Source of the DNA: Notolepis coatsorum
Taxonomy: Eukaryota; Chordata; Actinopteri; Aulopiformes; Paralepididae
Assembly: GCA_963971535.1 (NCBI GenBank)
Contig: OZ020589.1
Location: forward strand, 75,892,811-75,956,810
Length of the DNA stretch: 64,000 nt
Reading direction: 5' to 3'
A program made the position numbers and the translations under genes. The notes beneath the pieces were generated by a model. That model saw nothing but the letters and a program-made list of their open reading frames with translations. It was not told the origin of the DNA and did not search any database. How positions within the stretch are numbered: the first letter of the stretch is position 1; every line of letters starts with the position of its first letter. Of the stretch, positions 54,601-60,347 are shown piece by piece.

Positions 54601-56208
54601 TTGGAAACTAATTGCAGGTTCTCCAAACGTAAACCCACCACGGTAGCACTTTATAATAACACCCTGTTATAATACATTTATAAGGTATTTGTAGATAATG
54701 AACTAATCATGAACAAACCATTTATATACATTCATAAATGATTATTAAATCATTTATAACTATATTTGTATAACATTTACAAAGTATTTATAACGCATTA
54801 GTGGATAATGAACTAATCATGAACAAACCATTTATATATATTCATAAATGATTATTAAATCATTTATAACTATATTTGTATAACATTTACAGATTAGTTC
54901 TACATTATTTATAACTCATTATCAACATTGTTTGTACTTGATTTGTTCATCATTAAATAATGTTGTTTAATGTGTAGTAACACATTTGTAGATGCTTTGA
55001 AAAATGGATATGAAAAAATTACTATACTGTGTCTCCATTTATTTTTCATGTTCAACAAATGATTTGTTAAGACATTCATAAAACATCTATAAATCATTTG
55101 CAGATGCTATTGTGTGCCCTAATCTGAAGTGAAGCATATTCATCATTAACAAATGTCTAATAGTTAATTATTTGTTTACTTTTTCATCACATGTTACAAA
55201 TGTTGTAGACGGCTTTCGGATACACCCTTCTTTGTGACATCAAACAGTGACAGAATTAGGACTAAAGATAAATGCAATTTTATTAACATATAAAATACAT
55301 GTGCATGACATAGTGTAACTTGGGGGGGCACTAGGACCCAGGAGTACCCTGGCCAGGTATTGAAGAGTATCTAGAGAGGAAGTCTCACGCGAGTGAGACT
55401 TGACGTCACGTGTGTTGCCGTCTATTTGAATGGAAGCACGATACATGCAGAACCAAGTTATTCGTGCTGCGCCTGTCCCACGCTTTTAATAAGGTATGAG
55501 CAGGTTAAACACCTTTTTTGTTGGTAAATCTATTCCATCATTTCCGACCTACAAACAACTCTTATATGTTGTGTAGACGTACTTGATGTGGTGGGCGCTA
55601 ACGTTACATTTGTTCCTAATGTGTGCTCAGTGCACTGCTCAGTATATTGTGGTATGTGATGATGATGACACGACACACAAGAGTAATAATTATTTGTATT
55701 TTCAGGTAGGGATGCACGATAATTATCGGGCCGATAATTATCGGGCCGATATCAGCAATTATGACGTCATCCCGATAAACCTGATAATGTTATTGATAGC
55801 TCCGATAATATATAATAAATTTTTTGGTTAAAAGAAATCCGGTGTGGGTGGATTTGGATGAAGGGCGCTTGTTTTTATTATAGCCTCCTCCCGTTTTGCC
55901 AGTACTGTGGTAAAACTGATAGCGTGTGGTTTAGGAACAGGGAGTTTTTCACAAATCCAGCGCTCCCTTTCTTGGCTGTGACGTAGTCACGTTACATTCG
56001 GAGGCAGACAGTCGATCTGCCAATTACGTCCCACTGCTTGCACCCACCTCTTCTTCTTACCACCAATCAGAAGCTCTCGTTCGTTTATTTACCTCCGGAT
56101 TGTCAGCCATTACTCTACTCGGAGCTAACGTTATCTCCCCGCCAGCCACATTGACAAGTACCAGCGCTTATACATTACTGGCAAATGTCTTGTTGCACTT
56201 GTGGCAAC

Positions 56209-57647
56209 GAGCGTTGCAGTGGCGGCCGCTGCCGCTGGTGCCTTGTGGGTCGCAGTTCACGTTAATAGGTCGAGTTGAAAATGTAATGCTCTGAGATGCT
56301 CTGGAGCAATCTCTCTCTGTCTCTCGGATCAATCAAATCAAATAATTAACACATGTATGTTGTCATTTTAAACAACTCACCATTCATTCATTATGCATCA
56401 GCAGCAGCTAAATAAATGTTATAGTTCACAACACAGCAGCGCGTTTTGAATCGCCAGCCTATTATCGTCTCAGCAAGCACAGTCAATACTTTTTTCCGTA
56501 GCCGCATTTCGCGGAGACAGCTGTAGTGTGTATAGCGAGAGAGAGAGAGAGAGCGAGAGAGAGTTACGTATCATGTATTAAACTAGAGTTAAGATCGCTA
56601 ATCTACCTTGTTGTTGGCTTGTTGATAAAGTATATCCACTCTATGGCATTGTCCATCCAGCCTGTGTTGATGTCCATCCATTGTGCGCATCCATATAGCT
56701 TGTTGTTAGCCAACAAGCTGTGTGAGTGAAGAGCTGTGTCTTTGTCCATTTCCGCCTCGAACAGCCTGCAAACTACCTGGCGTTCTATCGCCATGCTCTA
56801 AGACAAACTCTAACCATAACCAACTTTGAAAGAGTGCCTAAGCTTAACAGTCTAAAGAACTTGCAGTCACGGTACGCTCGTCTAAGACAAACAGCTGCCT
56901 GCATCATTCTCACAACAACACTATCTCCACCGATCACCAACCTAGGAATAATAACCTAGAAATTGGATTCGGCCAATGATTTGTCCGTCTTTCAAACGGT
57001 GTTGATTTGATGGATTTAACAGAATTATCCAATTCCATGGTGGTAGCTTTAGCTAACTATAAATCGAAATGAAAATACTCAGTCCTTGAATAAACCTGGC
57101 GCATTCTCTCTCTAAGCAAGAACCCGAGAAATGCGGCTATGGAAAAAAACTGGCATCGCGTCGGCCAATCAGAGCGTCTCCACGAAAATGCGGCTATGGA
57201 AATTCTTCACGGAAGTTCACGCTGCTGGGCTAGACCGCTTCAAATTGCGCTCGGATTCCAACATAATAGTCATATTTCAACGCACAACGCCGTATGCACT
57301 GATTGGCTGTGACGGAGACAGCGATCAAACTGTGACGCGCACTCAGAGCGCGATCGCTTCTAGCCCTCGGGCGAGAAATACGAAAAAATAAAAAAAACGT
57401 CACTTCCTGCTCAAGAAAACGATGTTTTTTTAATTTAGATAATAACGTTATATTGTGCATTGGAAATACAAACATACTTAAAATGAGTAAATAGTATTCA
57501 TTTTAAACATGTTTATATTATTTATAGGGCTATAAAACACAAAAACGAAAAAGTTGTATTGTCTTCTTCTCTGATTTAACAGCAGCTGGCCAGCAGGTGG
57601 GTCGGCGCCCTTGCGCCCACTAGTGGCGAGCCGCCACTGGAGCGTTG
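56209..57647. mobile_element. Nested hAT-type element, TIR CAGTGGCGGC, TSD GAGCGTTG
   Basis: The body 56217-57639 starts CAGTGGCGGCC and ends GGCGAGCCGCCACTG, flanked by exact GAGCGTTG. Its sequence is the inverted relative of 25661-27484 (for example CTACCTGGCGTTCTATCGCC near 56774). Confidence 0.94.
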
Positions 57648-57746
57648 TCAGCATCGACTTTAGTAAAATAGACCCAGACTTTTGAACGTTTCGTTCTGTC
57701 CGCCATTATGAGAGCAGAGCTGTCTGTACTCGGCAGCGCAGCACCT

Positions 57747-57780
57747 GTGTGTGTGTGTGTGTGTGTGTGTGTGTGTGTGT
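57747..57780. repeat. (GT)n microsatellite, left part
   Basis: GT run interrupted by the hAT-type element. It continues at 58794. Confidence 0.95.
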
Positions 57781-58801
57781 TAAGGCTGAGCCCGAACCCT
57801 GTTTTTAGGGTTCGAACGTTCGCCAGGGTTTATCGAACGAACGTTCGAACGTTCGTTTTTTGTAAATTTTTTAATAAAAAAAAATTTGATTACATTTTTT
57901 TTTTATATAATTCTTTTTTTTTTGTATTATAGATCCTACGGATGGCGGCATTGCATAATCTATTGGTGAAAAAACATGTTGTTTACAGTGGTGGCTGTTC
58001 ATGTAAACATGTAATTAAACAAAGCATTCAGAAGAAAATAAACAAGCTACTGAGTACTGCATAAAGTTCCTACTTATGATAAACAATAGCCCTTGCACAC
58101 CGCAGTCACGTAAGGGGCTAGATAAACAAATGCATTCGTTTTGTGGCATTAGCGTTATATAGTTAGTGTTACACGTTCAATAACAGGTATTCACTCTTGG
58201 TCGACGGGAAGGAGAGAGGCGCGCGCCTCAGCTCCTTCCACCGTCTACCTAGGAACGGGGGACGACAGAGAGACACCGGCGGGGTGCCGCCGGGCTCCCA
58301 ACACGCCTGCCGCCCGTCCGCCCTCGGCCAGAGTTGTTTACAACGCAACCACCTCCCGCCATGAAGCTCGCGCTCCGTGGCCGAAAAAGGCATTATTGAT
58401 CCTTCCTCAGCGGGGAGCTACGGAGTCTGTTCACTCTGTTGTGCTTCTCGGTCTCGCAAGCAGATAAATGTATTGCCGGAAGTAAAAAAATAAACAAACG
58501 CTTGCCGATTGGTGGTAACAGCAGAGGCGGGTGCAAGCGGTGTGACGTAATTGGCAGAATCGCCTGTCAATCAAAATGGTTCTATTGCATTGGTTGAGAC
58601 AATAGTATCCAGCTACAGCCCGGCAGAGACCACACTGGTTGAGCCGAGCGCACTCGGGGGACGCGCCGCTTCACATCGCCTCAACGTCGCGCGCCTGCCT
58701 TTTTTTTTTTTTTCACCGAGCGTTCGAACCTATTAATTAAAGTCCGAATGTCAACGTAACGTTCGAACGTTCGAACGTTCGGGCTCAGCCTTAGTGTGTG
58801 T
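57773..58801. mobile_element. Nested hAT-type element in a GT microsatellite, TIR TAAGGCTGAGCCCGAA
   Basis: The body 57781-58793 begins TAAGGCTGAGCCCGAACC and ends GTTCGGGCTCAGCCTTA, with GTGTGTGT directly on both sides. Sub-terminal TTCGAACGTTCG palindromes lie at both ends. The middle (58190-58700) is strikingly CpG-rich. No transposase seen. Confidence 0.93.
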
Positions 58802-58920
58802 GTGTGTGTGTGTGTGTGTGTGTGTGTGTGTGTGTGTGTGTGTGTGTGTGTGTGTGTGTGTGTGTGTGTGTGTGTGTGTGTGTGTGTGTGTGTGTGTGTG
58901 AGTGAGTGTGTGTGTGTGTG
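58794..58920. repeat. (GT)n microsatellite, right part
   Basis: About 127 bp of GT with one AGTGAGTG interruption near 58900. The other half of the same array lies at 57747-57780. Confidence 0.95.
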
Positions 58921-60347
58921 GGAGGTGAAGAGAGGAGAGAGCACAGCACAGCCCGCTCCCCGCGCAGGCAGAGACACCGAGGCAGGAGAGATATAGACAA
59001 CGGCCAACAAGATTAGTTTGCGACGTTTAAATTCCTAAAAAAAAAAATCCATAATTTCTCGAGTACCGATAGCAGTACCGATGACGTCGGAGCTTATAAA
59101 TACTAAAAAAAATTGATAAAAAATATATATATATATATATACATTTAAAAAAAATTATAATACAATAAATATCGGTTATCGGTATCGGTTATCGGCTTGA
59201 GGAGCATAAAGTTATCGGTATCGGTGTCAAAAAAATCAATATTGTGCATCCCTATTTTCAGGCTGTATCGGCGCCTATACAGTCTGAAAATACAAATAAT
59301 TATTTGTGTCGTGTCATCATCATCACATACCGCAATATACTGAGCAGTGCACTGAGCACACATTAGGAACAAATGTAACGTTAGCGCCCACCACATCAAG
59401 TACGTCTACACAACATATAAGAGTTGTTTGTAGGTCGGAAATGATGGAATAGATTTACCAACAAAAAGGGTGTTTAACCTGCTCATACCTTATTAAAAGC
59501 GTGGGGCAGGCGCAGCACGAATAACTTGGTTCTGCATGTATCGTGCTTCCATTCAAGCAGACGGCAACACACGTGACGTCAAGTCTCACTCGCGTGAGAC
59601 TTCCTCTCTAGATACTCTTCAATACCTGGCCAGGGTACTCCTGGGTCCTAGTGCCCCCCCATGTTAGACTATATGTCATGCACATGTATTTTATATGTTA
59701 ATAAAATAGCATTTATCTTTAGTCCTAATTCTGTCACTGTTTGATGTCACAAAGAAGGGTGTATCCGAAAGCTGTCTACAACATTTGTAACATGTGATGA
59801 AAAAGTTACAAATAATTAACTGTATTAGACATTTGTTAATGATGAATAGGCTTCACCTCAGATTAGGGTACACAATAGCATCTGCAAATGATTTATAGAT
59901 GTTTTATGAATGTCTTAACAAATCATTTGAGATACAGTATAGTAGTTTTTTCATATCCATTTTTCAAAGCATCTACAAATGTGTTACTACACATCAAACA
60001 ACATTATTTAATGATGAACAAATCAAGTACAAACAATGTTGTAATGAGTTATAAATAATGTAGAACTAATCTGTAAATGTTATACAAATATAGTTATAAA
60101 TGATTTAATAATCATTTATGAATGTATATAAATGGTTTGTTCATGATTAGTTCATTATCCACTAATGCATTATAAATACTTTGTAAATGTTATACAAATA
60201 TAGTTATAAATGATTTAATAATAATTTATGAATGTATATAAATGGTTTGTTCATGATTAGTTCATTATCTACAAATACCTTGTAACCTTATAAATGTATT
60301 ATAACAGGGTGTTATTATAAAGTGCTACCCAAACCTCTTTGCACCTT

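Follow-up and report, generated by a model that had tools for sequence, protein, structure and literature searches.

Elements of the hAT superfamily make 8-bp target site duplications (PMC3517528, PMC3942097) and have short terminal inverted repeats of 5-27 bp (PMC3517528). Among the non-autonomous members, the MITE Mar of Drosophila (PMC3517528) and the MITE-like copies of BuT2 (PMC3942097) are the closest counterparts to three of the elements considered here. Two further systems bear on the fourth: Galileo, a foldback element with very long inverted repeats and a transposase of the P superfamily (PMC4168063), and hATpin, a hairpin-forming, MITE-like hAT element of plants. Nested elements have also been used for dating. 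In interruption analysis of nested clusters, older elements are broken by younger ones, which gives relative ages (PMC2517846), and the TinT approach likewise uses nested transposable elements for relative dating (PMC3014933). Finally, microsatellite-associated MITEs of pineapple prefer (TA)n (PMC8449440).

The locus described here lies at 54642-60329 of the window, by which we mean the entire stretch of 64,000 nucleotides analysed (C13:75892811-75956810), in a 3.42-Gb genome of 4787 contigs that was also used for all copy comparisons. It holds four elements: a foldback element, FB, contains element A, and A contains elements B and C side by side. The initial annotation described a four-level nested stack; the elements are indeed nested, but with B and C adjacent inside A the stack is three levels deep. 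A stack of this kind is an ordinary outcome of serial transposition in a transposon-rich genome, and nested transposons are commonplace. The value of the locus is that it gives a clean worked example of how transposition history can be read, and relative ages for families in a large animal genome.

Like Mar and BuT2, A, B and C are present in many copies and have 8-bp duplications, short inverted ends and no coding capacity that we could see; unlike them, they have no linked transposase relative and carry no Ac, Buster or Tip group label. FB resembles Galileo in being almost all inverted repeat around a tiny centre, a likeness of structure alone, whereas the FB family duplicates 8 bp. It is also non-autonomous and hairpin-forming, as hATpin is by description, but lacks short hAT ends. 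C is MITE-like and flanked by a dinucleotide repeat, as are the pineapple MITEs, but shows no clear repeat preference (2 of 11 sites). In comparison with the published dating approaches, the present case concerns DNA transposons at a single locus, with resolution at the level of insertion footprints. Among 20 of the 80 papers of an open-licence library that contain at least one of the four end strings, none has those of FB or A, which is weak evidence on prior publication; the B and C strings turn up there in papers titled on subjects other than transposons.

The foldback element and the insertion of A

The left arm of FB (54642-55705, + strand) begins with the terminus GGTAGCACTTTATAATAACACC and is matched in inverted orientation by the right arm (59284-60329, - strand). 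The short palindrome centre, at 59263-59283, lies to the right of the A insertion and was located from the sequence together with the empty-site alignments. The arms align at 94.3% over 1076 columns, with 1008 of 1027 gap-free columns identical. Each is about 1.05 kb long, and FB is almost wholly an inverted repeat. At several other places (e.g., L015, L019 and L031) full copies measure 2.0-2.1 kb and have their inverted arms side by side, as expected for the foldback structural class, in which long inverted repeats are mobile as a unit.

Both ends could be read in 24 FB copies (the window copy and those of L011-L058). Perfect 8-bp duplications flank 13 of them, nine copies match at 5-7 of 8 positions, the window copy being one of these, and two match at 1-2 positions. 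When flanks were paired by swapping, at least 5 of 8 positions matched in 14% of pairings and all eight in 0.2%. The FB family therefore makes 8-bp duplications. At the window the flanks, CCCACCAC and CAAACCTC, match at 5 of 8 positions and form no perfect duplication; this is a level reached in 14% of swapped pairings, and so the flanks of the window copy say nothing either way. We infer that FB came to this locus by an insertion event of its own.

Several other features of the FB family were noted. Imperfect duplications of 5-7 positions are frequent (9 of 24) despite a mean divergence of only about 3% between arms. Four copies (L014, L021, L037 and L053) have large losses around the palindrome centre, as may be expected of long palindromes. 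Homogenisation of arms within copies is not claimed: arms pair by copy in four of eight full copies, and their mean identity is 97.2% within copies versus 96.5-97.0% between copies. A second, different foldback begins 18 bp to the right of FB (60348-60950), with arms of 276 nt that are 99% complementary. By eye, some 25 bp at the left end are missing when this foldback is set against its own right end and a relative at 45987-46612, and the ends of that relative suggest a TTAA target.

Element A occupies 55707-59254 (+ strand; 3548 bp including B and C; ends TAGGGATGCAC ... GTGCATCCCTA). It is flanked by matching copies of TTTTCAGG at 55699-55706 and 59255-59262, in keeping with the initial report of a foldback that contains an element with identical 8-bp flanks. 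The same 8 bp are present once in FB places without A. For this comparison the window flanks were rejoined at one TTTTCAGG to give a query of 95 bases, and the FB set comprised 29 loci besides the window, corresponding to 26 distinct places because three loci were the other arms of places that had been included already. In 18 of the 26 places the rejoined site aligns across the junction for 89 or more of the 95 bases; 16 of these alignments are gap-free and three are identical over all 95 bases, while the two gapped ones (L020, two gap columns; L024, one) have their gaps away from the junction. The remaining eight places consist of five that align over 63-86 bases, some with gaps, and three that give no alignment at the centre, where it is deleted or missing. 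Of the six A copies fetched from elsewhere, visual inspection of the alignment shows 8-bp duplications of their own in four; the right end is missing in the remaining two.

Although A lies near the tip of the palindrome, an insertion hot spot there is not claimed. Three insertions, at two places (one at the window and two at the L017/L041 place), are no farther than about 70 bp from the FB centre, and others lie near FB positions 650, 900, 920, 1625 and 1825; the copies were ranked by a left-arm query, which biases this survey of positions.

Elements B and C within A

As the initial annotation stated, A contains two further elements, one flanked by GAGCGTTG and the other by GTGTGTGT in a GT repeat. 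Element B (56217-57639, + strand; 1423 bp; ends CAGTGGCGGC ... GCCGCCACTG) lies between matching copies of GAGCGTTG at 56209-56216 and 57640-57647, and A copies without B have this site in a single copy. The site is uninterrupted in all six A copies fetched, five of which read GAGCGTTG and one GAGCGCTG. Elsewhere, 8-bp duplications flank all seven fetched copies of B; the one that lies in an AC repeat is uninformative. Under equal base frequencies, two fixed points would share 8 bp by chance with a probability of about 1.5e-5, and the 8-bp matches of both A and B directly adjoin matching inverted ends. A diverged relative of B lies in inverted orientation at 25660-26387 and matches it in pieces, one 91% identical over 252 columns and another 77% identical over 524 columns.

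Element C (57781-58793, + strand; 1013 bp; ends TAAGGCTGAGCCCGAAC ... GTTCGGGCTCAGCCTTA) is situated in the GT repeat of A, with GTGTGTGT at 57773-57780 on its left and 58794-58801 on its right. Wherever a GT repeat is broken in phase, its flanks are identical, and the GTGTGTGT pair is therefore no evidence by itself and uninformative as a duplication. Of the three perfect insertion footprints that had been proposed, those of A and B are perfect and informative, but that of C consists of flanks that are identical without being diagnostic. Transposition of C is instead supported by the uninterrupted GT repeat in other A copies and by the duplications of C copies elsewhere. C is absent from all five fetched A copies that reach the repeat (L064 diverges before it), and among ten C copies with fetched flanks, nine have perfect 8-bp duplications and the tenth matches at 6 of 8 positions. 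The identity scores of the C copies were 93-98%. A preference of C for GT repeats is unsupported (by eye, two of 11 sites, window included). All these counts come from small samples of best matches (6 of 39 other places for A, 7 of 39 for B and 10 of 39 for C) and lean to close relatives.

A stretch of 94 columns with 82% identity is common to A (56007-56098) and C (58476-58568), in opposite orientation. On this resemblance, the A and C families may be related or may share a captured segment.

Coding capacity and hAT membership

No long open frame was found in 54642-60329: the 11 stop-to-stop frames with 80 aa or more run to 119 aa at most, and six of the 11 were searched against Pfam with no match at E 0.01. 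All four elements are accordingly taken to be non-autonomous, and they most likely depend for movement on transposases encoded at other sites. Away from the stack, the window has an open frame of 585 aa at 19293-21050, which we take to resemble the N-terminal part of a mineralocorticoid receptor; it gave no PDB match at E 0.01 and one Pfam match, below its cut-off.

The label hAT-type in the initial annotation fits A, B and C in duplication length and short ends, and is taken as putative. Eight-bp duplications were found for A (the window and four of six others), B (the window and seven of seven others, one uninformative) and C (nine of ten others), and the identical inverted ends measure 11, 10 and 17 bp, respectively, within the 5-27 bp given for hAT. 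The hAT terminal motif is YARNG, and A (TAGGG), B (CAGTG) and C (TAAGG) agree with it, weakly informative as so short a motif is. These properties suggest that A, B and C are hAT-like. FB makes 8-bp duplications as a family (13 of 24 perfect, with 5 of 8 positions at the window), but its arms of about 1.05 kb are far outside the range for hAT ends, and its terminal GGTAG is outside the motif. Because it lacks short hAT ends, FB is not filed as hAT.

Serial insertion, its alternatives and relative ages

We are highly confident that serial cut-and-paste transposition explains the stack. FB, of about 2.1 kb, would already have been in place when a copy of A entered it near the palindrome tip; a copy of B would later have entered A at GAGCGTTG, and a copy of C the GT repeat belonging to A. 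At each integration, cuts staggered by 8 bp would be repaired to leave an 8-bp duplication. The claim that the order of events can be taken directly from the sequence is borne out as far as FB preceding A, and A preceding both B and C, but position is silent on B versus C. The check proposed at the outset, excision of the elements followed by comparison with other copies, was run in the same genome, and the rejoined FB and A sites match copies elsewhere; in the copies that could be judged, outer elements do not carry the inner sequences at the same points. Counting against the full model are the 5 of 8 matching positions in the FB flanks, the eight of 26 FB centres that could not be fully judged, and the lack of a linked transposase.

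Conceivably, the four parts could belong to a single composite element that transposes whole, in line with their common duplication length and their confinement to 5.7 kb. However, the outer elements are found elsewhere without the inner ones, the whole 5688-base query was matched over its full length at the window alone among the 40 candidates scored of 16301, and no second co-occurrence of any two of the four families within 10 kb was found among the 39-40 best-scored places per family. Given the empty sites and no repeat of the whole stack or of pairs among these places, the composite element is rejected, and we accord it virtually no probability. A chimeric assembly, in which separate repeats were misjoined, is extremely improbable. 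High-copy repeats and a long palindrome, as present here, are hard to assemble, but every junction falls exactly at an element terminus and the A and B duplications are perfect, which a random misjoin would not yield.

For C, the GT flanks would look identical, with no duplication, if it had entered the repeat through repeat-mediated recombination or gap repair. We regard such a route as very unlikely, since C has exact ends that it shares with other copies, nine of ten of which have perfect duplications. It is also conceivable that the cuts were staggered by 8 bp but that one or more elements belong to another superfamily. Duplications of about 8 bp are made by the P and Merlin superfamilies as well, and no transposase is linked to the elements at this locus. 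The start of FB and its arms of about 1 kb are unlike the short hAT ends reported in PMC3517528, whereas A, B and C combine inverted ends of 10-17 bp with 8-bp duplications, as described for hAT (PMC3517528, PMC3942097). On balance, membership in another superfamily appears unlikely.

Returning to serial insertion, the divergence among copies agrees with FB being older than A, and A older than B, which matches the nesting order. Pairwise substitution averages 3.27% for 15 FB arms from eight copies, 0.83% for A (first 502 columns, seven copies) and 0.14% for B (eight copies), and private substitutions of the window copy number 6 of 815 columns in the FB left arm, 2 of 502 in A and 1 of 1418 in B; these counts are low, unequal numbers of copies entered the comparisons, and all copies were picked from the best matches to the window. 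That the B copies are nearly identical hints at possibly recent activity of a hAT-like family, which would be useful if confirmed. We suggest, tentatively and as somewhat less than an even prospect, that the hAT-like B family has kept its mobility in this species to the present or the very recent past, by way of an unseen autonomous partner, and that its insertion here might still be polymorphic in the population.
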